From an uncultured Candidatus Actinomarina sp. (GTDB lineage Bacteria; Actinomycetota; Acidimicrobiia; Actinomarinales; Actinomarinaceae): a DNA stretch of 64,000 bases. Positions 6,327-36,561 of the stretch are shown piece after piece. The stretch is from positions 109,790-173,789 of the forward strand of contig CACJUH010000003.1 of the NCBI GenBank assembly GCA_902596545.1, given 5' to 3'. The number at the start of each line of letters is the position of its first letter. Position 1 is the first letter of the stretch. The translations under genes and the position numbers were made by a program. Below the pieces are notes generated by a model that worked only from the letters and a program-made list of their open reading frames with translations, was not told the origin of the DNA and made no database searches.

Positions 6327-7582
6327 TTTTTATTATTAAAATTCTCAAATCCTACATGTTCTGCGATTCTTAAAAGTTCATTATATTTTGCAGTTCTTTC
6401 TCCTCTAGCAGGTGCCCCTGTTTTGATTTGCCCACTTGAGGTTCCAACAACTAGGTGACTAATAAAAGAATCCTCTGTTTCTCCAGATCGGTGGGAAACC
6501 ATGCTTGTGTAATTGTTCTTATTTGCTAGTTTCATTGCTTCAATAGTCTCTGTAACACTCCCAACTTGATTAACCTTTATCAAGATTGAATTTGCACATC
6601 CTTCATTAATTCCTTTTTGTAAAATTTTCTCCTGTGTGACAAAAAGATCATCGCCAACAAGTTGTACATTTTCACCAATTTTGGACGTCAAATACTTCCA
6701 ACCTTCCCAGTCATCTTCAGCTAAACCGTCTTCTATAGATACAATCGGATATAAATTAGACAACTCTATTAAATAATCTGACATTTCAGTATTGGATAAG
6801 GCATTTCCTTCAATAATATATTTGTCATCTTTAAAAAACTCTGTAGATGCTGCATCAAGAGCAAGAGAGATTTGTTCTCCAGGCTTGTACCCTGATTCTG
6901 CAATTGACATCATTATTTCATCTAAAACTTCTTTACTTGATGAGAAGTTTGGTGCAAAACCACCTTCATCCCCGACATTTGTAGCTAATCCATTATCTTT
7001 GAGTCTTTTTTTAAGTGTATGATAAACCTCAACGCCAGATCTAAGTGCATCATCAAATTTTTCAAAACCGTGAGGTACAATCATAAATTCTTGAATATCA
7101 ACTGAGTTATCCGCATGCGCTCCGCCATTTAAAATATTCATAAATGGAACTGGAAGGGATGGATCTCCATAAATATTTGGTATCAATTCATATACATATT
7201 TTTGAACTGATTTGCTATGAGCAACTAAGTTTGCCATTGAAACTGCAAGTATTGAATTAGCACCAAGACTACTTTTATTTGGTGTTTCATCAAGTTGAAT
7301 TAAAGTAGAGTCTATCTTTTGTTGATCTGCAGCATTTTGACCAATTAAAGCCTCCGAGATAACTTTATTGACATTTTCGACTGCCTTAGTTACTCCTTTT
7401 CCGTTAAACTCTTTTGAATTATCTCTTAATTCATGTGCTTCTAGAGTGCCTGTTGAGGCACCCGAAGGGACAGCGGCTCTTCCCCATGAGCCATCATCCA
7501 AAGTAATTTCAACTTCAACTGTAGGATTAGCTCTTGAATCTAGGACATACCTAGCGAAAACGTTAGTAATTTTATTATTCAT
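6314..7582 (-). CDS. eno: enolase
   Basis: Converts 2-phosphoglycerate to phosphoenolpyruvate; cytosolic. The 422-aa length is standard. Visible motifs: the N-terminal ARYVLDSRANPTVEVE, the catalytic-loop region GAHADNSVDIQEFMI (about 153-167), GDEGGFAPN (about 205), the Mg ligands SIEDGL and GDDLFVT (about 286 and 312), and the signature ILIKVNQVGSVTET (about 333), then SHRSGETED. It is probably first to be translated in the eno - ftsB - DUF501 - ppx block. Confidence 0.98.
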   Translation of the reverse strand: MNNKITNVFARYVLDSRANPTVEVEITLDDGSWGRAAVPSGASTGTLEAHELRDNSKEFNGKGVTKAVENVNKVISEALIGQNAADQQKIDSTLIQLDETPNKSSLGANSILAVSMANLVAHSKSVQKYVYELIPNIYGDPSLPVPFMNILNGGAHADNSVDIQEFMIVPHGFEKFDDALRSGVEVYHTLKKRLKDNGLATNVGDEGGFAPNFSSSKEVLDEIMMSIAESGYKPGEQISLALDAASTEFFKDDKYIIEGNALSNTEMSDYLIELSNLYPIVSIEDGLAEDDWEGWKYLTSKIGENVQLVGDDLFVTQEKILQKGINEGCANSILIKVNQVGSVTETIEAMKLANKNNYTSMVSHRSGETEDSFISHLVVGTSSGQIKTGAPARGERTAKYNELLRIAEHVGFENFNNKKWEL

Positions 7583-7622
7583 AACCCTGTTACTTAAAAT
7601 TTAGCAGAAAAAGGATAGTTTG

Positions 7623-8363
7623 TTACTTTAATTGACTTTTCTTAGCTTCTTCCCAAAGTGTTTCTATATCAATACTCGGATCTGCATTTTTCTCAACATA
7701 TTTTGCACGCTCAATAAATCTCTGAGTTGATTTATTAAGTTGTATTTCTGGATCTGCCTCAAGATATCTGCAGATATTTACCACTGAAAATAAAATATCT
7801 CCTATTTCACTTTTTCTATCTTCATCATTTTTTGCATCTTTTAATTCTTCTACTTCAGATAATAAATCCTGCAATGCTTCCTGATAGTTTGTGTACGTTA
7901 AATCTAGTTTTTTTGCTTTACGCTGTGTTTTAAATGCTTTGGTTATAGATGGTAATTTTTGATCAATATCATCAAATATGGAGTCTGAGGTTTCCTGCTT
8001 TTTGATTTCCTCCCATTGTTTTTCAACATCTTCAGCACTTTCTAATTCTACGTCCCCAAAAACATGTGGATGTCGTTTAATAAGTTTTTCCTGTAAGTTA
8101 GTGACTACATCTACAATAGAAAAATATTTGTTTTCCTCTGCAATTTTTGAATGTAAAAGGATTTGTAATAATAAATCACCTAACTCTTCATTCAACATAT
8201 CGTGATTCGCAGGATTAGTTTGCATAGCTGCAAGTGCATCAAGAAGTTCATATGCTTCCTCAATTAAATGCTTTGCCAAAGATTCGTGAGTCTGCTCTCT
8301 ATCCCACGGACATTCTTTTCGCAATCGTGAAATAATGTCAACTAAATCATCGAATTCTTTCAT
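7623..8363 (-). CDS. mazG: MazG nucleoside triphosphate pyrophosphohydrolase
   Basis: Hydrolyses (d)NTPs to NMP and pyrophosphate, cleaning the nucleotide pool. The protein has two MazG repeats, as in E. coli: the first with RLRKECPWDREQTHESL and EEAYELLDAL then EELGDLLLQILLHSKIA (residues 10-70), the second with the EVEELKD and EIGDILFSVVN pair near 165-195. I chose the ATG at 8363; a TTG two codons upstream (8369) overlapping the mfd stop is possible. It follows mfd directly, so the two form a genome-maintenance pair. Confidence 0.93.
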   Translation of the reverse strand: MKEFDDLVDIISRLRKECPWDREQTHESLAKHLIEEAYELLDALAAMQTNPANHDMLNEELGDLLLQILLHSKIAEENKYFSIVDVVTNLQEKLIKRHPHVFGDVELESAEDVEKQWEEIKKQETSDSIFDDIDQKLPSITKAFKTQRKAKKLDLTYTNYQEALQDLLSEVEELKDAKNDEDRKSEIGDILFSVVNICRYLEADPEIQLNKSTQRFIERAKYVEKNADPSIDIETLWEEAKKSQLK

Positions 8364-8365
8364 AA

Positions 8366-11300
8366 TCAAAGAATACTATCTAATAATTCGTAGGTGCTTT
8401 CAGGAGTTAAAGTGTGTTGAAAATTTAATACCAAACGTTTGTTTCTAAAAATAAACCTCTTATCATATTTTTCAATTGAAAGTTTGAGATCTTCAGTCAA
8501 ATCAACAGGAAATAATTCAATTTGAAATTCTCTAATTTTGCACCTTATTATTTCTTTTGTTTGTAATATTGATCTGATTTTTGCAGTTGAAAACAAATTA
8601 TCAGTAATCTCTGGAACATTTCCAAACCTATCAATAATCTCATTTTTGATCTCATCAACTTTATTCGGTTCCGAATGTTCAAGTCTTTTGTAAATATCTA
8701 TTCTTTCAGAATCAGCATCAATGTAACTCTTGGGAATTGAAGAACCCCAATAGCAATCTAACTTAATTTCAGTTTCTAAAATACTGCTTTTATCCTCACT
8801 TTTGCCCTCTATAGAATCTATGACGTATTTATTGAAAATATTTAACCCAACATTTGCAATAAAACCAGACTGTATATCTCCAAGAATGCTTCCTGATCCA
8901 CGCAACTGTAAATCTTTCATTGCTAGAGAATATCCTGTTGATGTCTGTCCTATGGACTTTATTGCATCAAGTCTTAATTCTGCATCAACACCTAAATTTG
9001 TGTTATGAAAAAAGTAAGCAAAACTCTGTTCTCTTCTTCTACCTACTCTACCTTTTAATTGATACAGTTGAGACATGCCCAAGAGCTCAGACCTTAAAGT
9101 AATCAAAGTATTTACTTTAGGTAGATCTATTCCTGCTTCAACAATGGTTGTAGCAAATAAAACATCAACCTTTTTATCCCATACATCCTGCATTGTTTGT
9201 TCGATCTGATTAGTTGCCAACTGCCCATGTAAAAGTCTGTGATTTAAATTTGGAAAGACCTCTTGAATTTTTTTCATCCAAACTTGTAATTCTTCAATTC
9301 GGTTCAACACAAAAAAGACCTGTCCACCCCTAGAAATTTCACGTTGAATAGCAAGAGCGATAGTTGACTCATCAATATTTCCAACATGTGTAAGTGTCTC
9401 TAAACGATTTTCAGGTGGTGTTTCAATTCGAGATGTTTCTCTAATTCCCATTAGTGACTGTTCGAGTGTCCTTGGTATTGGTGTTGCTGTCAGAGTGAGC
9501 TTATGAACCTGATTAGAAAGTGACTGAAGTCTATCTTTATCCTCTACACCAAACCTATGTTCTTCATCAATAATCAACAATTTGAGATTTTGAAATTCAA
9601 TATCATCACTTAAAATCCTATGAGTTCCTATGAGAATATCTACAGAGCCGTCTTTGACTCCTTCAACAATGTTTTGTACTTCTTTTTTTGTAACGAATCT
9701 ACTTAAGTGTTTTATATTGAGTGGATAATCTTTCAAGCGATCTACAAAAGTATCAATGTGTTGTTGAACAAGAATTGTAGTTGGAGCTAATAATGCAACT
9801 TGGCCTCCTGAAAAAGCAACTTTAATTGCAGCTCTTAATGCAACCTCAGTCTTACCAAATCCAACATCGCCAAAAATTAGACGATCCATTGGTATATTTT
9901 TTTCTAGATCTTTTTTAACATCGTTAATGGCAGTCAATTGATCTGGTGTTTCAATATACTCAAAACTATTTTCTATTTCATTTTGCCAAGGGGTATCCTC
10001 ACCAATGATTAATGAGTCGTTTCTTATATTTCGTAATTTGTATAAATTCAAGACTCTATCTGCAATTATCTTTGCATTTTGCTTGGCTTTTTCTTTTGCT
10101 CTTTCCCATTCTGCACCACCAAGATGAGATAGCCTAGGGTTCTCTCCTCCAATATAAACCTCAAGCTCATTAATTTGTTCTGATGGTACAAAAAGCTTAT
10201 CAGTTCCAGCAAATTTAATCTCTAGATAGTCTTTCTCAACTCCTTTTATTTTTTTTACAACTGTGCCTTCATACAATCCAATTCCATGAAAATTGTGAAC
10301 AATATAAGTATTTGGAACAAGAATGGCTTGTTCACTAATCTTTTTTATCTTTCTTTTAGATTTAATCATTTTTCTTTTTTGGAAAATCGATTCATCAATA
10401 ATGGCTAAATTTAGGTCTTTAAAAGATGCAGAAAATGAAAATGGATTGTCAACGGTAATTACATTGGATAGCGTTGAAAACTTTTCAGTTATAACTTTGT
10501 TTTTTGTTGAGAGATAAATTTTTTCTATTTCCTTTAGAGAATCAATAATATTTTCTGTGTTGATTGAGTCTAAATAATTCGGGAGATTTTCTAGATTTAT
10601 TAAATCTGATGTTGAATAGAAATTAATATCATACTCACCAAAAAATTTGGAGATATCTTTGTAACGTGACTTAAAATTCTTGATTTCTAATGAAAAATAT
10701 TGTTTAAGATTTTCAAAGGTATCTTTTTCAATATCAATAATTTCCTTAAGTTGATTATCTACTATATTTTTGTCAACAATGTGTAGGGCAACATTGCTTG
10801 TTAAGTCTAGAAGACACTTCTCTAAATCTAAATTCTGAGAGTATTGGAACAATTCGTAATCATCTAAATTTTCTTTATTGTTAGAAGATAGGTTCAAAAT
10901 ATCTGAGTGCTTTATTTGGAATAGTTCAGTTGCCGGCACTATGAGGATATCTTTCTTTTCACTAATAGATCGTTGTGAAATTGTGTCAAAAGTTTTTATT
11001 TCATTAACTAAATCTCCATCAAAAATCACTCGAAGAGGTAAATCATAATTGATTGGGTAAACATCTAACTGTCCTCCTCTAATCGCAAAACTTCCCTTTG
11101 ATTCAACTCTATCTTTTCTTTGATACTTAAGGTGAATAAGATTCTCAATTAATGAATCAAAATCAATTTCCTCATTTAATTCAATTTTACAAATTTCTAA
11201 TTCTTCAAAATATATTCTTTGGGAAATGGCCTTGATGCTAGTTGCAATGTTGTAATTATTATTTGTAAGGAGTAGGTGCGCAATTTCTAATCTTTTCCCC

Positions 11301-16347: not shown

Positions 16348-16420
16348 GGCCTCGTAGCTCAGGGGATAGAGCACAGGTTTCCTAAACCTGGTGTCGCAGG
16401 TTCGAATCCTGCCGAGGCCG
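16348..16420 (+). tRNA. tRNA-Arg (anticodon CCT)
   Basis: A 73-nt standard cloverleaf: acceptor GGCCTCG/CGAGGCC with G discriminator, D-arm TAGCTCAGGGGATAGAGCA, anticodon stem CAGGT/ACCTG around loop TTCCTAA giving anticodon CCT, and T-arm CAGGTTCGAATCCTG. CCA is not encoded. It lies alone between the divergent exporter and the propeller gene. Confidence 0.97.
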
Positions 16421-16428
16421 CTAATAAT

Positions 16429-16477: not shown

Positions 16478-18850
16478 ATGAAAAAGATTGTATATTTATC
16501 AATTATATTTTTAATTTTTTCATTCTGTTCTGGAAATGCAGATAATGATTTTGCACAACCACCATCTCCACCTGAACCACCTCAAGTTCAACCACCATCT
16601 CCACCTGAACCACCTCAAGGTCAAGGTCAGCCACCTCAAGGTCAAGGTCAGCCACCTCAAGGTCAAGGTCAGCCACCTCAAAAATTTACAGAGGAAGATA
16701 GAGAAAATGCTATAAATATTGTATTTAATGCTACACAAGAACTAAATGATTGTTTTGAAAGTGGTTTTGGTAAAATCTATGAAGAAATTCTTAAAGGATA
16801 TATTCCTGACGATTATGAGGTTGGAGTTATTCTAACATGTAATAGTAATCCAAATGCATATGGTTCCAACCAGGGTCAGTCATCTCAAGGTCAAGGTCAG
16901 CCACCTCAAGGTCAAGGTCAGCCAACTGAAGGCCAAGATCCTAAAAGACAAAATGAAGGATACTACGACTTAAAAGTCACTTTAAATGATTCGAGCTACA
17001 CAAAAGCTACTGCTTCTTCTAATTCGACTTTTGGACAAACAGAATCAGCAGACATAATACTTTCAGATTTTGGATTTAATACAACAGGTGGTCCTTTAAA
17101 ATTTAACCATCCTGTTTCAGTTGCTTCAGATGGAAATAGACTTGTAGTTGTTGATAGATTTAATAATAGAGCGCTTATTTGGAATTCTATACCAAGCTCT
17201 AATACTCCTCCAGATATTGTTTTGGGACAAAATAACTTTTATACAGAAATGGAAGGAACAGGTCTAAACAATTTCAATTTTCCTGGACAAGCATCAGTAA
17301 CACCTGATGGAAAGCTACTTATTGCTGATTCCAACAATAATAGAATTCTAGTTTGGACCACTTTCCCGACTTCATCAGGACAAGCAGCAAATTACTCTAT
17401 TGATATAGATGTCGCGGGAGGAATGAGAGGAACTTGGCCTTGGGGAGTTTGGTCGGACGGAACTAAAGTTATAGTGTCTCAAACTGTAGGGGGTCAAATT
17501 TTGTTATGGAATAATTTCCCAGGTTCCGGAAATAATTCACCAGATGTCATTATAAGTTCATCCCAAGTTGGTACTCCCCGTTCGGTAACATCTAATGGTG
17601 AGTACATAATGATTGGAGATGAAAATGCAAATGGAGAATGTACAGGTAGTCATGGAACAAGATCAACTCACATTTGGACTTCATGGCCAACTACTAATAG
17701 GAATCCTGATGCTTGCATTGATAATTGGATTTCAAGTGCAATTGTAGATAATAAGATTTATGGAATTCAAGCAGGAGGAGAATCTTTGATGTTCTTTGAC
17801 TCTTTGCCTACAAGCAATCAAAAGAAAGATGTGTCTTCAAGCAGTATGATTTTTGCTTCTCCAGGAAGCGGTCATCGCTGGCAAGGAGGAGATGATGGAG
17901 GTGTAGTATATGCAGGAGGTAAATTATTTGTAGGAGAATACAATAGAAACCATATTTCTGTTTTTGATTCACTGCCAGATTCACCAAATGTCCATCCTGA
18001 TTGGTCTCTTGGCTCTACTTCTCCAACAGATTTTCCAATACTTGATGATTCGATAATTCAAAATCCTGTAATTGCTTCAAATGGAGAAATGTTATTTGTG
18101 TCGTCAGATTTTGATAGATCTCTCTCTGTTTGGAAGAATCTTCCTGGAAGCTCCTCCGCAAAACCAGATATTTTTTATAGAAGATTTGAAAATGCTCCTT
18201 GGGATATAACTGTTTATGAAAATTCCGTATTTCTTGCTGGAAAAAGAGGTATCTACGGATGGAATAATTTTGATGGATCTGGAGAGCTTCCTGATATTCA
18301 TAATTGGGAAAGCATTGGAAGTATAAATTTTCAAGAACTATTTGGGATAGCATACAACGGTACCTATTTTGCTATTGCTGAAGGCACTGGTGAGAAAATA
18401 TATATATGGGAAGGAATTCCTTCGAAATCAGACGAACCAGTGAAAACGCTCATTAATCCAGTAGGGGTTGGTCGACTTGACATGAATCAGGAATGGTTAG
18501 TTGTAGCAGCATATCCTGGTGACCAAGCAAGTGTTCATGTAATTAAACTTGATGAATTATTTACAGGTCAGCTCCAGCCCATTACAAATTATAGAAACTT
18601 CCCTCAGGGAGTTAGCGTTAACGAAAAAGGATTCTTTATTGCTTTACAAGCAGATAATAAAGTTATTGGATGGACATCAGTAGAAGAAGCTTTGTCAGGC
18701 AGGCCTCATACTATGTCTTTTGGTGGTAACGATGATAAGTCTAATTTAGGGACAAAAATGGCTTCATCTGTTGGATGGGATGGTGTTCATTTATGGGTTG
18801 GAGAATTTAAATTTTCAAATAGACTTCTTGGCTTCATGCCTTCTAGATAA
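16478..18850 (+). CDS. secreted NHL-like beta-propeller protein with Pro/Gln/Gly repeats, 790 aa
   Basis: Exported protein with a signal peptide ending in a Cys at 17 (IFSFCSG, atypical lipobox). Residues about 25-68 and again about 130-150 are low-complexity proline/glutamine/glycine repeats (PPQGQGQ units). Between them lies a helical segment with a Cys pair. From about residue 190 to the end there are repeated blades: each has a W-x-N/S-x-x-P turn followed by PD, as in LIWNSIPSSNTPPDIVLGQ and LVWTTFPTSSGQ, the pattern of NHL-type propellers. Function unknown; surface binding to glycan or another protein is likely. Plus strand, alone. Confidence 0.7.
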   Translation: MKKIVYLSIIFLIFSFCSGNADNDFAQPPSPPEPPQVQPPSPPEPPQGQGQPPQGQGQPPQGQGQPPQKFTEEDRENAINIVFNATQELNDCFESGFGKIYEEILKGYIPDDYEVGVILTCNSNPNAYGSNQGQSSQGQGQPPQGQGQPTEGQDPKRQNEGYYDLKVTLNDSSYTKATASSNSTFGQTESADIILSDFGFNTTGGPLKFNHPVSVASDGNRLVVVDRFNNRALIWNSIPSSNTPPDIVLGQNNFYTEMEGTGLNNFNFPGQASVTPDGKLLIADSNNNRILVWTTFPTSSGQAANYSIDIDVAGGMRGTWPWGVWSDGTKVIVSQTVGGQILLWNNFPGSGNNSPDVIISSSQVGTPRSVTSNGEYIMIGDENANGECTGSHGTRSTHIWTSWPTTNRNPDACIDNWISSAIVDNKIYGIQAGGESLMFFDSLPTSNQKKDVSSSSMIFASPGSGHRWQGGDDGGVVYAGGKLFVGEYNRNHISVFDSLPDSPNVHPDWSLGSTSPTDFPILDDSIIQNPVIASNGEMLFVSSDFDRSLSVWKNLPGSSSAKPDIFYRRFENAPWDITVYENSVFLAGKRGIYGWNNFDGSGELPDIHNWESIGSINFQELFGIAYNGTYFAIAEGTGEKIYIWEGIPSKSDEPVKTLINPVGVGRLDMNQEWLVVAAYPGDQASVHVIKLDELFTGQLQPITNYRNFPQGVSVNEKGFFIALQADNKVIGWTSVEEALSGRPHTMSFGGNDDKSNLGTKMASSVGWDGVHLWVGEFKFSNRLLGFMPSR
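16557..16683 (+). repeat. in-gene tandem repeat encoding Pro-Pro-Gln-Gly-Gln-Gly-Gln
   Basis: A 21-nt unit (CCACCTCAAGGTCAAGGTCAG) occurs in nearly exact tandem copies, preceded by two longer copies with CCATCTCCACCTGAA. A second short block of the same unit lies at about 16875-16930. The exactness at DNA level suggests recent slippage or unequal exchange. Confidence 0.9.
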
Positions 18851-18857
18851 GAAATTT

Positions 18858-19658
18858 TTAAAGTCGTTTCTTTAACGTCGTTTCAATATTAGATAATACT
18901 AATTTTTTTAAATCTTCATGAATTGATTTATTTGAAGCAATAATTAAATTTGAATTAATTGATGGAAATTTTTCTACTTCATCAATAACTACTCCACCAG
19001 CTTCTTCAAGAATTAAACTCGCACCAAGTGTATCCCACGGTTTAGTAAAGAATTCAAAATAGCCATCAAATTTATTATCAGCTATCCAACAAACATCCAA
19101 TGCTGCAGTTCCAAATCTTCTAATTCCTCCACAAGATTTTAAGACTGCTTCAAAAGTCTTCATGTAATCTTTAGAATTGAATACTCTATCATATGGAAAT
19201 CCAGTAGCAATAATCGACTTTTGTAAAGTCGTGTCTTTGCTTACACTGAGTTTTTCACCATTCTTATACGCTCCAAATCCCTTATACCCTTCATATAAAA
19301 TGTCGTTATAGATATCTAGTACATAGGCTTGGGTTGGTTTTTTGTCTTCAAGAAGCATTAAAGTAATAGCAACCTGAGGAATGTTGTTTGCATAATTAAC
19401 TGTTCCATCTAATGGGTCTATAATCCATGATCTTTTAGAGTCTGAATTGATTGCTTCAGACTCTTCTGAAATTATCCCATCATCCGGAAAATGTTTTTTT
19501 ATTGCGTTCATTAAAATTTCTTCAGATTTTAAATCTGCTTCAGTAACTAAATCTACAACATGCTTTTTAGACGAAACTATTAAAGAGTCTCTCATGTCCT
19601 TGATGCAATCAGAAGCTTCAAGTAAAGCATCTTTTAATAAAGAGATTTCTTTTTGCAA
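18858..19658 (-). CDS. inositol monophosphatase family protein
   Basis: Mg-dependent phosphatase of inositol monophosphate or a related sugar phosphate (SuhB/HisN/CysQ group). From the TTG at 19658 it has 266 aa, the family's usual size. Motifs: DLVTEADLKSEE and PDDGIISEESE (metal site), WIIDPLDGTVNYANNIP (about residues 85-101, IMP signature 1) and CWIADNKFDGYFEFFTKPWD (signature 2 with metal-binding Asp). The open frame extends 102 codons further upstream but that is a shadow of the neighbouring proline repeats. It starts 8 nt after the upstream lipoprotein stop and lacks a clear ribosome site. Confidence 0.88.
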   Translation of the reverse strand: MQKEISLLKDALLEASDCIKDMRDSLIVSSKKHVVDLVTEADLKSEEILMNAIKKHFPDDGIISEESEAINSDSKRSWIIDPLDGTVNYANNIPQVAITLMLLEDKKPTQAYVLDIYNDILYEGYKGFGAYKNGEKLSVSKDTTLQKSIIATGFPYDRVFNSKDYMKTFEAVLKSCGGIRRFGTAALDVCWIADNKFDGYFEFFTKPWDTLGASLILEEAGGVVIDEVEKFPSINSNLIIASNKSIHEDLKKLVLSNIETTLKKRL

Positions 19659-19665
19659 TTTATAT

Positions 19666-22600
19666 TTATGGTGGTGGTGGGTTATCACCTGGTGGAACAT
19701 CACCTGGTGGAACATCACCTGGAGGAACATCTCCTGGTGGATCGTCTCCTGGTGGAACATCACCTGGTGGATCGTCACCTGGTGGCACATCTCCTGGTGG
19801 ATCGTCTCCTGGTGGCACATCTCCTGGTGGATCGTCTCCTGGTGGAACATCACCTGGAGGAACATCTCCTGGTGCATCGTCACCTGGAGGTGGTTCACTA
19901 CCTGGAGGTGGTTCACTACCTGGAGGAACATCGCCTGGTGCATCGTCACCTGGAGGTGGTTCACTACCTGGAGGTGGTTCTGTTAATGAACAAGTAGGAT
20001 CTTCTGGATTCTTTTCACAAAATTCATCTACAAAGTTTGAATAAGAATCTTGCTGCTCTTTAAATTGATCAGCCTTTTCTGTATTACCCCAAAAATTATC
20101 TTTATCACCTTCATCGTTTTTTAAACATTCTGGAGAATTTGCATTTGCAGGATCTATACAATCAGCTAAACCTGAACTAAATGCATCAAAATTTTCATTG
20201 TTTTTATCTTCAAAACAGATTGGATCAGATGGATTTTCTTCACAAATACCACCTTTCGCTTCTTCATTAAAGGATTCATATACTACGGGACCCTCGTTTT
20301 CTTTATCTCCTTCAGAATAGAGGCTAAAGTCTGACGGTTTATATTCCTCAGAACATTCTGGAGCTTCAGGTTCTTCTTCGCAATTCACAATCAGATAGGA
20401 ATCATGCTTTCCATATCTTTCTTCGGCTAAATTATCTGCACCATCAATAGTGGAGTAATAAACGCCTTGGTCTGATAGCTCTACAAATGAATCATCACTA
20501 AAGACATTTCCAAGAAATTCTCCAGTATCAAATTCTGATTCTCCATAATAATCCCTAAAACATTCTGGATGGTCAGGTTTCTCTGTACAAAATTTCGGCT
20601 TATCTCCTGCAAAAGCGTCCGGATCAGGCGCTGCATACTGAGCAAGAACACCAGCAGTTAGTGGTCCTTTGTATCCGTCTTTTTGACCAAAATCATCAGA
20701 ACATTCTGGGGCTTCAGGAGTCTCCGCACAATAAGTTGGTGCTTTGTAGTCTCCATCTGTAAAAATATCAGAAGGCTTATAATCTTCTGAGCACTCATAC
20801 AAATCTGGGTTTTCTTCACAATATTCATCCGGTGGTCCCGCTAAAACAGCTGGTCCACCATAAATATCAAACATATCTTCTCTGTCAAGCGCAAGTGCAT
20901 TGACATCACCAACAAATTCTGTAAAGAAGTCTCCTTCACCAGTACACATTGTATCGTCTGGATATAAATTACAATCAACTGGTTCCCAGTCATCACCTAA
21001 AACTTCTTCGTCATATACATGAAAAAATGTATAAACCGCAGCTGTATTACCTGATTTACATTCAATTGCATCTGGATTATCGTTACAAAATCCATCTTCA
21101 GGTACATTTCCAAAAAATAAAGAGCTGATATCTTCTGGTGGTGTTCCATCACAATCCTCTGGGTTTGCGATACAGTACTCTCCTCCTTCTTCGAAAGCTT
21201 TACCTAAAAATTCTGGACCATCAGCACACTCTGGAAGCCATGGCTCTTCGTCACAATACCCTGGTTTAATATTATTCTCAGTAAATGTGTACTCAAATCC
21301 CATATCTTGAACCATATCTTCAACAAAGTGATTGCCAGCAAAAGCCTTTGCGAGGAATTCTGGAGGTGGCCCGCCAGCTAAACATTCACTATCATCAGGG
21401 TTGTCATAACAATATGTTCCCTCAACAAAGTCTTCCTCTCCTGCATTTAAAAACATATTAGAAGCTGCTAGAGCAAGTGCTGAAGCTACATCTCCTGATT
21501 CAGCTAACTCATTTACAGCGTTAGTATCAGCAGAAATAAACTGCATAACACTATGTTGAGCTCTAAAATCAGATTGATCTTTATGATCAAAACCTAAATT
21601 TTCAAATTCTTCATTTTCATGTACTTTTGCTGCATCACCAAAATTATTAAAAAATTCAGTTGGTGGAAGTTCTTGCAATTCTCCATCTTTAGGTGCTGAA
21701 TCCCACACTTCATTAATAAATTCTTCTACAACTTCTTCTGTTACAGCGACATCTTTTATAGCATCCCCAAGAACTTCTATAGATTCAGTTATATCTTCTG
21801 GTGCTCCTGCAGCAACTAATAATGTTGCAGCTAAATCTACTCTCTTAGAATCACTTTCTGTAAAGACAGCATTTGCAGCAACATCTGGGGTTAAGTTTTC
21901 TTTACCTTCAGATAATTTTTCCTGAGTTGAGGCTTTGCATGTATAGCTACATTCACCTTCCATATTTGATACGAAATCATCAACTATCAAAGCTACTGTT
22001 GATGTGTCTTGTTCGGTCCAACCAGAACCACCTGTGGTTGCGCTTCCCAATTCTGTTCCAGCTGTTTGGGATACCGCAACTAATACGGGATTTCCCTTTT
22101 CGTCTGGTAATAATTCACTGAATACTGCATCATCTGCTTTTTCTCCACCTTCTAAAACTGTACTTTTTGCCGACATTGTGACTACATTGTATTCAAATAC
22201 GCCTTCTGTTCCATGAACTGAAAGTTCTGCAGTTGGTGTAACGATTTTTGCTAAAGATGCATTTAGGCCTTCACTGAAAATATCATAAGCTATGCTGCCA
22301 GAAATTACATCTACTGTTAAAACTCTAGCACCTGCTTCTTCATCGTAATCAAAACTTCTGATGTTAACTACAGAATTTCCACCCATCAACAAAGATGAAC
22401 CATCTTCAAAAGACATTTGAGCTGTTGCATTATCTCCAGTTCTAATTTTTACTCCCATTTCAAGAGGAACAATCGCTGAAACAACCTCCCAATCTGTAGA
22501 TGTACCAGTAAGAATTCCTGTAGCACCAATTAAAGGCTTTAATAAGATTGGAGGAACTACTAATGAAGCTTCGTTTACAACTTCTCCTATTATTGGTTCA

Positions 22601-22731
22601 GCAAGAGTTGTACTGGTCGAAGAAGTAGTAGATGTGTCATTAACTTCAACAGATGTTTCCTCAGATCCTCCGCATGCAGAAAATATAAGTAATAAAACAA
22701 CTGTTAATATTTTTAATTTTTTAATTTGCAC
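19666..22731 (-). CDS. FecR-domain lipoprotein with CX3PX4C repeats and PPG tail, 1021 aa
   Basis: Very large exported protein with a GTG start and lipobox-like FSAC (Cys20). In order: a Thr/Ser linker (about 25-45); a FecR-like beta domain (about 75-190, with VKIRTGDNATAQMSF, then SSLLMGGNSVVNI and TPTAELSVHGTEG); a region with a Cys pair (CSYTC) and helices (about 250-435); then about 500 residues holding twelve Cys-pair repeats, mostly C-x3-P-x4-C such as CDEEPWLPEC and CEENPDLYEC; and a C-terminal tail (about 920-1021) of PPGD/PPGS repeats. FecR domains outside sigma regulation occur in surface proteins. Function unknown; calcium or partner binding is possible given the acidity. Confidence 0.75.
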   Translation of the reverse strand: MQIKKLKILTVVLLLIFSACGGSEETSVEVNDTSTTSSTSTTLAEPIIGEVVNEASLVVPPILLKPLIGATGILTGTSTDWEVVSAIVPLEMGVKIRTGDNATAQMSFEDGSSLLMGGNSVVNIRSFDYDEEAGARVLTVDVISGSIAYDIFSEGLNASLAKIVTPTAELSVHGTEGVFEYNVVTMSAKSTVLEGGEKADDAVFSELLPDEKGNPVLVAVSQTAGTELGSATTGGSGWTEQDTSTVALIVDDFVSNMEGECSYTCKASTQEKLSEGKENLTPDVAANAVFTESDSKRVDLAATLLVAAGAPEDITESIEVLGDAIKDVAVTEEVVEEFINEVWDSAPKDGELQELPPTEFFNNFGDAAKVHENEEFENLGFDHKDQSDFRAQHSVMQFISADTNAVNELAESGDVASALALAASNMFLNAGEEDFVEGTYCYDNPDDSECLAGGPPPEFLAKAFAGNHFVEDMVQDMGFEYTFTENNIKPGYCDEEPWLPECADGPEFLGKAFEEGGEYCIANPEDCDGTPPEDISSLFFGNVPEDGFCNDNPDAIECKSGNTAAVYTFFHVYDEEVLGDDWEPVDCNLYPDDTMCTGEGDFFTEFVGDVNALALDREDMFDIYGGPAVLAGPPDEYCEENPDLYECSEDYKPSDIFTDGDYKAPTYCAETPEAPECSDDFGQKDGYKGPLTAGVLAQYAAPDPDAFAGDKPKFCTEKPDHPECFRDYYGESEFDTGEFLGNVFSDDSFVELSDQGVYYSTIDGADNLAEERYGKHDSYLIVNCEEEPEAPECSEEYKPSDFSLYSEGDKENEGPVVYESFNEEAKGGICEENPSDPICFEDKNNENFDAFSSGLADCIDPANANSPECLKNDEGDKDNFWGNTEKADQFKEQQDSYSNFVDEFCEKNPEDPTCSLTEPPPGSEPPPGDDAPGDVPPGSEPPPGSEPPPGDDAPGDVPPGDVPPGDDPPGDVPPGDDPPGDVPPGDDPPGDVPPGDDPPGDVPPGDVPPGDVPPGDNPPPP
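19669..19978 (-). repeat. in-gene tandem repeat encoding Pro-Pro-Gly-Asp
   Basis: Repeated 15- and 30-nt units (CACCTGGTGGAACAT, CTCCTGGTGGATCGT and variants on the plus strand) encode the PPGDVPPGDDPPGD tail. Near-identical copies alternate in blocks, including two copies of a longer block with PPGSEPPPG. The reverse strand and other frames stay open through it, which produces false gene calls. Confidence 0.92.
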
Positions 22732-22758: not shown

Positions 22759-24849
22759 TTAAACTCTGTGCTGTTGTCCCGAATTTATATAATTTTGGGC
22801 ATAAATTCCAGCTCTTGAAACGGCCTTTAATTCTAACCAAGTAAATGGATTTACTGTTTTGCCTTTTACATACTCAAGAAATATTTCTAATGACTCTCTA
22901 TGGCCTTTTCCTGAGGAAAATACTCTACTTTTATCTTCATTTCTCTCTAAATATCTTAATAATTGAAAATCTTCTATTATGTAAGAGTTGCCACCACCAT
23001 GTACTTCAATTCTTTCTTTTGAAAGACCCTGGTTAGTTTCAGAAAAGTACTGAATAGACGCATGAGCTCCATTAGCAAAATTAACACTTATAAAAACTTG
23101 GTTTTCATTTGCTTCATTATTGACTTTATTAACTGGAGCTGAGGAAGCAACGCTTTGTGGAAGAGAATCAAATAAATAGCATGCTAAGTCAATAGCATGG
23201 ATAGCCTCTCCAACAATTCTTCCACCTCCAATTTCTTTTATATTTGTCCAATGATCTTTATCTAAAGGAGGAACACTGAATCTAAAAGTTATACTATTCG
23301 CAGCTTGATTATTTATTTTTTGTTTAATAAATTGTGTAGCTTCAGCAAATCTTCTATTAAATCCCACAAATAACTTTGGATTATCAGAGTTATAAATAGC
23401 TTCTTCTATCTCTACAATTGATTCATCGTTTAATGCTAAAGGTTTTTCTACATAGATTGCTTTTCCTTTATTTAGTGCCTTAATAACAAGTTCACTGTGG
23501 TTAAAGTGAGGAGTTAAAATTAAAACTGCATCAATCTCATCAGCATTCAGTATCTCTTCTTCTGTAGGGTATTTGTTTTTAATCTTAAAAGTTTTTGCAA
23601 GAGATGCTGAACTAAGACCTGCTGACGATGCAATTCCTAAAATTTGACAATCTTTTTTTAGTTCCTTTAGTATTGGTAAAATTGTCGTAGAAGCAAAATT
23701 TCCAGCACCTAAAATTCCTAAATTGACTTTTTCTGTTTTAGGTTCAAGTTCGATAGTTCTTTGAAAATCTATTTTAGGTTCTGACTTATTATCATATCTC
23801 AGCACTACTGCGAGTGGCTTATCTTCTTCTTTAAATTTTTGGTAAATAGATACTGAACTATCGAATGATACTTCTTCGCTGACTAAATCTAATAGGTGGA
23901 TTTGATTCTGGGACAATAATTTTATAAAAGCTTCAAAATTTCTATTCTCAGTCCATCTAACATACTCAATTGGATAATCTTTTCCAAGAATTTCATATTG
24001 CTTATCGTATCTCCCTGGACCGTAAGATTTTGAAACAACAAGCTCAAGTTCTTTATAGTAAAAGTCATTTCTTGAAATGTTTAAAGGTATATCTCCAACA
24101 ACCACTATCTTTGCTTTATTTCTTGCAATTTTAGTAGCAACCTCTATTGGTTCATTACTAGATGTTGCTGCAGTAATTATTACTGAATCTACATTTGTCA
24201 TGTTTGCTTCTTCAGGAGAGGTATAAAAATTTTCACTTTGGGCGGTTCGTTTTGTATCTGGGTCAATACCTATGACTTCAGAGCCTTGTGCTTCAGCTAA
24301 CCTACAAACTAATTGACCAATAATTCCCAAACCAATCACTACTACTTTTGAACCAAGTGATGTCTCTGAAAGTCTTAATCCATGTAAAGCTATGCTGCCA
24401 AGTACTGTAAAAGATGCTTCCTTAATATCTGTATTATCTGGAATTCTTGCACAAAGATTTTGATTAACCACAACATATTCAGCGTGATTTCCATTGGAAA
24501 CTACCCTATCGCCAATGTGAAAATTGCTAACACCTTTTCCAGTTTGTACAACCTCACCTGAAGAGCTGTAGCCTAATTGGAGGGGCAAAATATTTTTTGG
24601 AAAAACAGCATTCCAGACTGCTCTAATTCCATCATCTTTTAATAACTTTAAACCTTTTTCTATATTTGAAGAATTTTGTAGTTTTTGACTTACACCAGTA
24701 TTTGCAAATTCTATTGCTGCTAACTCTGTTCCAGAAGAGACAACTGAATAATGGTTTCTAATTAGCACCTCTCCTGGACCAGGTTTTGGAATTGGTGTAT
24801 CCAAAAGAATTGGATCTGGATTGTTTTTCTCAACTACTAATTGTTTCAT
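22759..24849 (-). CDS. bi-domain oxidoreductase: zinc-type alcohol dehydrogenase fused to Gfo/Idh/MocA
   Basis: The 696-aa protein has an N-terminal medium-chain dehydrogenase domain (residues 1-340; GroES-like part with GSYSSSG-like LGYSSSGEV near 92 and Rossmann motif VVIGLGIIGQLV near 170) and a C-terminal Gfo/Idh/MocA domain (from about 372: LGILGAGNFASTT, then EKPLALN near 470). This fused architecture is known, mostly in surface-polysaccharide clusters; no other sugar genes lie next to it here. Substrate unknown, probably a sugar or sugar nucleotide. The usual catalytic zinc ligands of alcohol dehydrogenases are not obvious. Confidence 0.88.
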   Translation of the reverse strand: MKQLVVEKNNPDPILLDTPIPKPGPGEVLIRNHYSVVSSGTELAAIEFANTGVSQKLQNSSNIEKGLKLLKDDGIRAVWNAVFPKNILPLQLGYSSSGEVVQTGKGVSNFHIGDRVVSNGNHAEYVVVNQNLCARIPDNTDIKEASFTVLGSIALHGLRLSETSLGSKVVVIGLGIIGQLVCRLAEAQGSEVIGIDPDTKRTAQSENFYTSPEEANMTNVDSVIITAATSSNEPIEVATKIARNKAKIVVVGDIPLNISRNDFYYKELELVVSKSYGPGRYDKQYEILGKDYPIEYVRWTENRNFEAFIKLLSQNQIHLLDLVSEEVSFDSSVSIYQKFKEEDKPLAVVLRYDNKSEPKIDFQRTIELEPKTEKVNLGILGAGNFASTTILPILKELKKDCQILGIASSAGLSSASLAKTFKIKNKYPTEEEILNADEIDAVLILTPHFNHSELVIKALNKGKAIYVEKPLALNDESIVEIEEAIYNSDNPKLFVGFNRRFAEATQFIKQKINNQAANSITFRFSVPPLDKDHWTNIKEIGGGRIVGEAIHAIDLACYLFDSLPQSVASSAPVNKVNNEANENQVFISVNFANGAHASIQYFSETNQGLSKERIEVHGGGNSYIIEDFQLLRYLERNEDKSRVFSSGKGHRESLEIFLEYVKGKTVNPFTWLELKAVSRAGIYAQNYINSGQQHRV

Positions 24850-33960: not shown

Positions 33961-36561
33961 TTATGGAGTGCTTACTCTATAAGCCCCGTCGGTAGCTATC
34001 ATCTTCCTACCCTCCTGACCATTAATATCATTCAGATTACAAGATGGGTCTCCAGGAAAAGTTCCACAGGATAAATCATAATAATTTCTTTCTGTCACAT
34101 ATTTTCCATATGGTATTTCTACCTCTATTACTATTGGAACCCAGCCAAATTCTTTTCCAGATGGTGGCTCTACAACCATCCCATTATCTAATTCTACAAG
34201 ATGAAAATTTTCTAAACTATTTGGCTTAGAAATGAATTCTTGATTATGACCCCATTCTTTATGCATTTTTTCAATTTTTAATTGTAAAAAGTCTAGGTAT
34301 TCCTCTGTATATATTTCTGGATAATCTATTGATAAATACTTAAAAGTAGGTTGATCTTTAAATCGATACCAACGATATTTAATTATGCTTCCGTCATCTA
34401 ATGTTGTCTCATATACGGTTGTATCACATCCGCCATTATCACAATCGAAGCAAGAGTAATCATATGGAATAGAGTCAATATTAAATGCCTTATCTGTATT
34501 GTTTTTAATCTCTTCTTCCCACAACTTGTCACTATTAGACTTAATATGTGGCATATATGAATTTCCTCGTTCGAGAGTATTCATCTCCATCACTTTTAAT
34601 TCAGCAGGAACTTGATTTTCGTTTACAGGAGTAAATTTATAAGATGAATAATCGCTTACTCCTCCGGGCATTAAAACTTTATAATATTGAGAAAGATCAC
34701 GCTCGTTAGGAGGAGTACCACTCCAATCCCAAAATGTATTTGTTTCTCCATTCTTTGTTTCTCCTTGAAGGTAAAGATTCCACTTAACAAGTCTTTCATC
34801 TATAGAAAATAGTTCTCCTTGTTTTAAATTTATTGTTGATGGATTACGATCGTGCTTTTCAACAATTAGAGGATTTGAGTATTGTTTTATATTTGTATTT
34901 ACATCTTCAATTTCAGAATCTCCATTAAAAAACTCAACAAAATTGTTATACACGCCAACATCATATGATCTTGCATCTAGTGTAAAAAATTCTTTATCTT
35001 TTAAAGAAGGGGCCATTGTCGGAAATATTTTGATATACAGATCTCCGTTATTGTCATATTCTGTAAATATTGGAAGTTCATACATTTCTGCACCAATAGC
35101 TACGTGATTAGTAGACCTATAAGCTAGAGTATTTTTTTCCTCTGTCCAAAAAAGAGGAGTTTCCATTTCATAATCATAGTCATTAGCATTATCAACATAC
35201 CAATCAAGTCCTTTTATGTATTCATTAAGATCTTTGTTTTCATACCTACCTGCAATATATTCGATTAGTATTTTTCTTAACTCCTCTCCTAAAAGGTCTT
35301 CATTATCTTCAGATCCATCTTCTAACAAAGTAAAAGCATTATTAACATCTATGTGTCTAATCCAGAATTCTGGAACGTATGCCCACATAGGCCCACTGTA
35401 CTGAGCGCTGTTAGAGACAAAAGTCCAGGTTAATTTACCCCGATCACTGTGATCATCTAGTAAAAAAGATTCTGGCCTTTCCTCACCACTGAATATTGGG
35501 AGTGCAAACCACCCATGTCCAAAATATATTCCACCATCTTCAGCATACTCTTCTTGATCTTCATCAAAATGGATAGCGTTCGGAAGATTAAGAACTTTAT
35601 TTGTTAATTGAACACCGCCAAAATCAGCACAATCACAACGTCTTTCGTAAAAACCCCAACCGCTATATGTGCTATTTCCGTTGTAAAACTTATTTGCTCC
35701 GCTAGCCATATAGGTAGGGTATTTTGAACGTCCAAATTTTTCGTATACTCCATATCCACCTTCTATAGTTCCACCACCAGGACCATAGGGATGTGCTCCT
35801 GGGGCTTGTATCCACTGGCCCCATACGCCTTGTTGAACTCCAATTTTTGTTGTATAAAATTCAGAGACTCTTGTATAAGAAGAATACCCATAGAAATTTT
35901 TTTGTAACTCAGCTTCTGGCTCATCTCCAACAACAAGTCCATCTCCACCAATACCGTGTTCAAAGTACCAGTCAGAAGCACAATAAATAGCTCCTAGAGA
36001 TGCACCATATTCTCCTTTATAATCTTCAATGTTTAAGGGATGTATTTTATAATCTTCATAAAGACCTTGGGAAACATGAAAATAATCAATGTCAAGTTTT
36101 TCTAACAGTTCTGGAATATCAATCAAAGAAGTTTCTTCATAAAATTCTCCATTAAACTCTCCTTCATAAGTACAGTGCCTAGGAAGAAACTTTCCTGGAT
36201 TGAATTCTGGATCAGGCTCACCTACTGTATAGTATTTTGTGAATACTGGATCATTTTTGTCTAGTTCTTCTGCACAATTTAATCTCCCTCCAAAATCATC
36301 ACTCATCATTTCAAGACATGCAGCGTATGATTCTGAATCATAAGTGCTTTCGACTTCTTCGTCTAAATTTTCTTGGGAATCAGTGAGAGAGTCTTGCTCT
36401 TCAATGAGTGCTTCTAATTCAGCTTCCTCTTCGGTAGTTAGATCACCTTTTTCTTCTAGGGCTACAATTTGCTGTTCTAATTCATCAACTGTATTTTCAT
36501 TTCCACCTGAACAAGAAGTAAAAATAAGGCTTAAAACAATAAATATAATTTTTTTATTCAC
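33961..36561 (-). CDS. large secreted lipoprotein of unknown function, 866 aa
   Basis: Family not recognised. Signal peptide ending IFTSCSGG (Cys17, lipobox-like), then an acidic coiled coil (about 24-68), then about 780 residues rich in Tyr, Trp, Asp, Gly and Asn with several Cys pairs (RCDCADFGG near 304, CFDCDNGGCDTTVYE near 710), ending with a C-x3-P-x4-C pair (CGTFPGDPSC) close to the C-terminus like those in the FecR-domain protein. The composition suggests a folded extracellular domain, possibly glycan-binding or enzymatic. Start is GTG. It follows the coiled-coil gene by 31 nt in the same direction. Confidence 0.65.
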   Translation of the reverse strand: MNKKIIFIVLSLIFTSCSGGNENTVDELEQQIVALEEKGDLTTEEEAELEALIEEQDSLTDSQENLDEEVESTYDSESYAACLEMMSDDFGGRLNCAEELDKNDPVFTKYYTVGEPDPEFNPGKFLPRHCTYEGEFNGEFYEETSLIDIPELLEKLDIDYFHVSQGLYEDYKIHPLNIEDYKGEYGASLGAIYCASDWYFEHGIGGDGLVVGDEPEAELQKNFYGYSSYTRVSEFYTTKIGVQQGVWGQWIQAPGAHPYGPGGGTIEGGYGVYEKFGRSKYPTYMASGANKFYNGNSTYSGWGFYERRCDCADFGGVQLTNKVLNLPNAIHFDEDQEEYAEDGGIYFGHGWFALPIFSGEERPESFLLDDHSDRGKLTWTFVSNSAQYSGPMWAYVPEFWIRHIDVNNAFTLLEDGSEDNEDLLGEELRKILIEYIAGRYENKDLNEYIKGLDWYVDNANDYDYEMETPLFWTEEKNTLAYRSTNHVAIGAEMYELPIFTEYDNNGDLYIKIFPTMAPSLKDKEFFTLDARSYDVGVYNNFVEFFNGDSEIEDVNTNIKQYSNPLIVEKHDRNPSTINLKQGELFSIDERLVKWNLYLQGETKNGETNTFWDWSGTPPNERDLSQYYKVLMPGGVSDYSSYKFTPVNENQVPAELKVMEMNTLERGNSYMPHIKSNSDKLWEEEIKNNTDKAFNIDSIPYDYSCFDCDNGGCDTTVYETTLDDGSIIKYRWYRFKDQPTFKYLSIDYPEIYTEEYLDFLQLKIEKMHKEWGHNQEFISKPNSLENFHLVELDNGMVVEPPSGKEFGWVPIVIEVEIPYGKYVTERNYYDLSCGTFPGDPSCNLNDINGQEGRKMIATDGAYRVSTP

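Follow-up and report, generated by a model that had tools for sequence, protein, structure and literature searches.

A lipoprotein with an array of short Cys loops, patchily present and mosaic among Candidatus Actinomarina genomes

The gene, its neighbours and its anatomy

The window analysed here is a stretch of 64,000 nucleotides (contig CACJUH010000003.1, positions 109,790 to 173,789) from an uncultured Candidatus Actinomarina sp.; its G+C content is 34.8%, and the genome amounts to 1.10 Mb on 17 contigs. On the minus strand, the window carries a gene with a GTG start (19666..22731) that encodes a FecR-domain protein of 1021 residues, hereafter the Cys-loop lipoprotein, for which orthologues were found in related genomes. 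Its upstream neighbour (22759..24849, minus strand) combines GFO/IDH/MocA and alcohol dehydrogenase-like domains (GFO), while the downstream neighbour (18858..19658, minus strand, likely TTG start at 19658) belongs to the inositol monophosphatase family (IMPase). These two genes form the left and right borders of insertion site 1. A tRNA-Arg(CCT) gene (16348..16421, plus strand) lies near this site and is also found near it in genomes G034, G023 and G009. Between the tRNA and the IMPase gene, an NHL-repeat lipoprotein is encoded on the plus strand (16478-18850); it is missing at the equivalent place in G034, which makes it the second gene of variable occurrence next to the tRNA.

The first 20 residues (22672..22731, minus strand) read as a signal peptide with the lipobox LLLIFSAC, in which Cys20 follows a hydrophobic segment as in bacterial lipoproteins; the Cys-Gly-Gly of the lipobox is invariant across the aligned orthologues. 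The orthologue L005 of genome G020 has an atypical N-terminus, VKSEEKKVFNFINNTCYASAC, suggestive of a signal peptide that is damaged or was assembled wrongly. A Thr/Ser-rich stretch separates the signal from the FecR domain (residues 95-195; 22147..22449, minus strand), which matches Pfam family PF04773 above the gathering score (31.8 versus 24 bits, E 2e-7) and shows weak Foldseek similarity to the FecR-type domains of 4m0n and 6ovk. The description as a FecR-domain lipoprotein in the initial annotation of this DNA therefore stands. Next comes a conserved, unnamed region (residues 240-430; 21442..22014, minus strand), defined by the alignment and predicted to be helical in the model. It contains CSYTC (residues 261-265; 21937..21951, minus strand), a thirteenth Cys pair that lies outside the loop array and is invariant in the orthologues. 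The array itself, located at residues 441-914 (19990..21411, minus strand), comprises the twelve Cys pairs that had been proposed. It is followed by a repetitive, Pro/Gly/Asp-rich tail (residues 918-1021; 19669..19980, minus strand), and both tail length and loop number vary among orthologues. The mature protein carries a net charge of -180 over 1002 residues.

The Cys loops and their probable closure

All twelve loops are encoded on the minus strand. In protein order, they are CYDNPDDSEC (loop 1, 21382..21411), CDEEPWLPEC (loop 2, 21226..21255), CIANPEDC (loop 3, 21151..21174), CNDNPDAIEC (loop 4, 21058..21087), CNLYPDDTMC (loop 5, 20944..20973), CEENPDLYEC (loop 6, 20791..20820), CAETPEAPEC (loop 7, 20701..20730), CTEKPDHPEC (loop 8, 20560..20589), CEEEPEAPEC (loop 9, 20353..20382), CEENPSDPIC (loop 10, 20215..20244), CIDPANANSPEC (loop 11, 20125..20160) and CEKNPEDPTC (loop 12, 19990..20019). 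Ten match C-x3-P-x4-C exactly, whereas loop 3 is shorter (8 residues) and loop 11 longer (12 residues), as had been noted; the spacing, previously put at about 30-60 residues, had to be corrected to linkers of 17-59. Such an accumulation is far from expectation, with a mean of 0.07 and a maximum of 3 matches in 10,000 shuffles of the 500-residue region.

When consecutive Cys residues are paired, all 14 aligned orthologues show loops of 8, 10 or 12 residues only, with 11-23 loops per protein and linkers of 5-62 residues. The first eight linkers are nearly constant in length (e.g. 42, 17, 21, 28, 41, 20, 37, 59), and several of the inter-loop segments are almost invariant. Loop 3 has 8 residues in every aligned orthologue, and loop 9 has 10 residues in the window protein but 12 in the others. 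Loop 11 is absent as a whole pair from most of them, with a 12-residue loop at a comparable place otherwise only in L005. This orthologue reaches 23 loops, the extra ones being located in its tail within Gly/Pro/Ser linkers of free length. Based on the 153 ten-residue loops of the family, the consensus is C-[DA]-[ED]-N-P-[DE]-[DA]-P-E-C; Asp and Glu vary at positions 2, 3, 6, 7 and 9, while the Cys and mostly the Pro residues are fixed. The motif FL[AG]xxF recurs in the linkers after loops 1, 2 and 8, and SE[DE]YKPSD in the two linkers that follow loops 6 and 9; this recurrence suggests that the array may have grown by duplication of a loop together with its linker.

No sequence match over residues 430-930 was obtained from Pfam, NCBIfam, PHROGs or the PDB, and literature searches found no paper describing the protein or the loop. 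The module is thus unnamed in these databases, in agreement with the initial annotation, which had named no family of this layout and had listed a Pfam domain over the units as one finding that would overturn its proposal.

In every complete orthologue, the number of Cys residues after the lipobox is even; the sole odd count comes from L021, which stops at a contig edge. Loops are gained and lost among orthologues as Cys pairs. Because the pairs are kept or lost together and in rings of restricted size, we infer a disulfide within each loop, which would best explain the pairing pattern and fits the earlier suggestion that each unit is closed on itself. AlphaFold models of residues 57-914 (14 orthologues; mean pLDDT 37.5) and of residues 536-735 (mean pLDDT 46.7) are both of such low confidence that Cys-Cys distances are unreadable in them. 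In both of these poor models, many loops have a short helix at either end, with the highest confidence for loops 6-7, and loop 6 falls into the best-predicted stretch (residues 635-680). In Foldseek searches against the PDB, the longer model gave weak FecR-type matches alone (best E 0.04) and the shorter one no match.

An oxidase that could close the loops is less apparent. A search for VKOR was negative in all 42 Candidatus Actinomarina genomes, DsbA and Thioredoxin_4 were not found in the source genome, and the only extracytoplasmic thioredoxin-like protein found was a TlpA/ResA-like membrane thioredoxin, a type that usually acts as a reductant. Loop closure would therefore be either spontaneous or catalysed by an unrecognised oxidase. 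Short disulfide loops between consecutive Cys residues are the only arrangement for which no isomerase is required, which would apply here. Nevertheless, this gap counts against a disulfide-stapled protein, despite its richness in paired Cys.

With Cys and Pro set aside, loop residues are on the whole no better conserved than the residues between loops, or even less so. For this reason, a role as structural staples seems more plausible for the loops than one as the binding surface.

Distribution, insertion sites and mosaic structure

Full-length or nearly full-length orthologues are present in 15 of the 42 Candidatus Actinomarina genomes, with 59-70% identity over the parts aligned, and a draw of 345 genomes from the class Acidimicrobiia yielded none outside the genus. 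A GTDB-wide scan returned 14 loci, 13 of them from Candidatus Actinomarina or the OCS155 cluster and one assigned to Actinomycetota only. In the searches made, the Cys-loop lipoprotein is hence restricted to the genus. Viral contigs contained no relative, nor did a tblastn search of phage records reveal one.

Among the orthologue-bearing genomes, the gene occupies three chromosomal sites. Site 1, near tRNA-Arg(CCT), lies between GFO and either the IMPase or an ABC gene and is used in G000 and G009; in G021, the GFO side is the same as at site 1, and the contig breaks off on the other side. At L188, L092, L194 and L195 (G064, G009, G020 and G012), no IMPase gene separates GFO from the DrrA-type ABC gene. 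Most other carriers use site 2, between genes for an M20 peptidase and an FtsX permease; some of their contigs include the M20 side only. Site 3 (L191, 3185-7568, genome G064) is near a metalloprotease-like and a TIR-like ORF and is possibly part of a variable region. By eye, the metalloprotease-like ORF shows a matrixin-like HELGHALGLNH motif, and the other ORF resembles a TIR domain.

Although many of the genomes are incomplete, the empty sites named here were each read directly. An intact site 2 without the gene is present in G017, G024, G014, G008, G061, G025, G002 and G034, and incompleteness was rejected as the cause of absence in these genomes. The gap between the M20 and FtsX genes measured 29-59 bp in the six genomes in which it was determined, including G025. 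In G034, site 1 is almost empty as well, with GFO and IMPase nearly abutting, and it is also closed in G025, whose GFO gene is nearly identical to that of the carrier G027. In a phylogeny built from the neighbouring GFO gene alone (30 genomes), presence requires at least nine gains or losses, and shuffled labels gave a mean of 10.3, hardly more.

The orthologues are in part mosaic. L010 groups with L011 over residues 57-600 and with L004 over residues 636-914, with full support in each half. Alternative groupings were rejected in both halves (AU p 2e-6 and 6e-5), these values being descriptive only since the groups were named after inspection of the identity plot. Up to about residue 613, L010 is 94-100% identical to L011, and thereafter 67-98% identical to L004, while the identity between L011 and L010 drops to 55-74%. 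Similar single breakpoints occur just after loop 2 (residue 503/504; L009 and L027) or within and after loop 5 (residues 589-628; L003 and L008, as in L010). Lineages have thus exchanged the C-terminal half of the gene, the junctions lying immediately behind loop 2 or around loop 5, and assembly artefacts are unlikely because several independent cases exist.

Between orthologues, dN/dS ranges from 0.04 to 0.22, which shows that the protein is functional and under constraint; in every pair tested, the loop half had a higher value than the first half. Much of the diversity of the protein therefore arises by exchange, and the combination of purifying selection and conserved linkers is unlike that of an antigen which diversifies rapidly by point mutation.

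Loops of the same kind also occur in other proteins. Across all six frames, the window contains seven strict C-x3-P-x2-P-x-C patterns, six in the Cys-loop lipoprotein and one in another lipoprotein-like ORF. The latter (33961-36561, minus strand, 866 residues) has the lipobox-like LIFTSC, no Pfam hit and 11 Cys residues thereafter, with the strict loop CGTFPGDPSC near its C-terminus (34039-34068). Among 59 genomes, the only cluster of strict loops outside the family is a lipoprotein-like ORF of G034 (L094, 5594-6706, 370 residues) that combines Thr/Gln repeats with a tandem pair of CEENPDHPQC loops and for which Pfam gave a sub-threshold match only, over the N-terminal repeats. Single strict loops elsewhere in these genomes look like chance matches. 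In addition, the inovirus-like contig L155 (IMGVR_UViG_3300002449_000104) encodes an 847-residue, linker-rich protein (7331-9874) near a gpI/Zot-like ATPase (phrog_197, E 1e-37). Its four loops, CKDNPDHPDC, CDLHPSDPIC, CETHPNEPFC and CSQNPYDPNC, are embedded in Gly/Ser linkers, and a query built from them returned only noise (E about 2). The loop-bearing proteins of the window, G034 and L155 are all of extracellular type, and the resemblance between the L155 protein and the Cys-loop lipoprotein could reflect convergence.

Interpretation and comparison with known systems

Taken together, we favour a variable, lipid-anchored and disulfide-stapled stalk that faces a partner or a phage, to which we assign a probability of about 0.5. 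The lipidated N-terminal Cys would anchor the protein in the membrane of an apparently monoderm cell, an outer membrane being considered unlikely for Candidatus Actinomarina (PMC7771536). The FecR-type beta domain and the helical domain would then lie close to the membrane, and the following ~470 residues would form an extended, very acidic chain traversing the wall. Along this chain, each loop of 8, 10 or 12 residues would be closed by a disulfide between neighbouring Cys, with an N-P turn after the first and P-E-C at the second, and would act as a staple separating conserved, Phe/Tyr-rich segments. Beyond the wall, these segments could then meet a partner, be it a ligand, a phage, a predator or some other cell; the Pro/Gly-rich tail of variable length ends the protein. 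The anatomy of a stapled stalk appears probable to us, and the sequence features support the surface module imagined in the initial annotation, at least as far as a surface-type lipoprotein is concerned. The variable role towards a partner or phage is a more tentative proposal, with the odds at or slightly below even. Frequency-dependent selection by such a partner, e.g. a phage or grazer, would explain the patchy presence, the three sites and the C-terminal exchange.

On present evidence, all alternatives are weaker than the stapled stalk. The one that survives best, although we regard it as rather unlikely, is a passive, protease-resistant spacer which lifts the FecR and helical domains or fills the wall, and whose presence and absence would follow neutral gain and loss. 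The freely spaced extra loops in the tail of L005 and the loops within Gly/Ser linkers of the inovirus-like protein are what such a spacer would predict, but the near-constant first eight linkers and the near-invariant inter-loop segments exceed its needs, and the low dN/dS speaks against it as well. Still less probable is a lipoprotein that binds or scavenges metals outside the cell, with the Cys pairs and their acidic neighbours as sites for calcium or for thiophilic metals such as zinc, copper or iron. It would account for the acidic residues at loop positions 2, 3, 6, 7 and 9, for the net charge and for the lack of a dedicated disulfide oxidase among the proteins found, and the FecR-type domain hints at iron. 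However, it is these acidic positions that vary, whereas the fixed residues are Cys and mostly Pro, and C-x8-C is not known as a usual thiolate metal site. Neither EF-hand-like DxDxDG nor RTX GGxGxD calcium-binding motifs occur in the protein, and the calcium site considered in the initial annotation thus gains no direct support. Nor did the neighbours scanned include a recognisable metal transporter or sigma factor. An envelope sensor in a FecR-type regulatory pathway is very improbable: the PF04773 match above cut-off and the weak Foldseek similarity to anti-sigma FecR-type domains are set against a lipobox start, FecR as the sole Pfam match without a recognisable N-terminal cytoplasmic anti-sigma domain or transmembrane helix before it, and neighbours that differ between the three sites and include no sigma factor in the part of the immediately flanking ORFs examined at sites 1-3.

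For Candidatus Actinomarina, a comparative study (PMC7771536) reports a single flexible island kept throughout the order, which is devoted to envelope sugars. With a genome of ~1.1 Mb, this bacterium keeps almost nothing optional; a 3-kb gene coming and going between near-identical strains at three sites and with swapped halves would amount to a second, protein-based layer of surface variation. Our broadest proposal is a doubtful one: an undescribed C-x-x-N-P-x-x-P-E-C disulfide microloop may build, in arrays of 11-23, a site-hopping, cassette-exchanging surface protein encoded by a single gene, and filamentous-phage-like virions may share this loop. Such a protein would parallel the polysaccharide island in diversifying the surface of one of the most streamlined bacteria in the ocean. 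As a compact design rule, with ring sizes of 8, 10 or 12 and free linkers, the loop can be searched for elsewhere.

Among known systems, the Leptospira envelope proteins LipL45 and Lsa33 likewise have a lipobox followed by a FecR domain. Their NCBIfam profiles match weakly and far below cut-off (NF033165, 20.1 bits against 350, E 2.6e-4; NF047849, 22.0 bits against 420, E 8e-5), which places the Cys-loop lipoprotein outside both families; the matches are limited to the FecR domain, and neither profile reaches the loop array. FecR/PupR anti-sigma regulators have the FecR domain and a weak fold similarity in common with it, whereas the Cys-loop protein is a lipoprotein in which neither of their other hallmarks, the anti-sigma domain and the transmembrane helix, was recognised. 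Thrombospondin type 3 and other calcium-binding Cys repeats combine an acidic extracellular chain with regular Cys residues; the Cys-loop protein resembles them in both respects but has no DxDxDG. The inovirus-like protein of L155 differs in its Gly/Ser linkers, in having no FecR domain and in showing no overall similarity, yet it carries four C-x3-P-x4-C loops of the same consensus and, like the Cys-loop lipoprotein, appears to be an extracellular-type protein.
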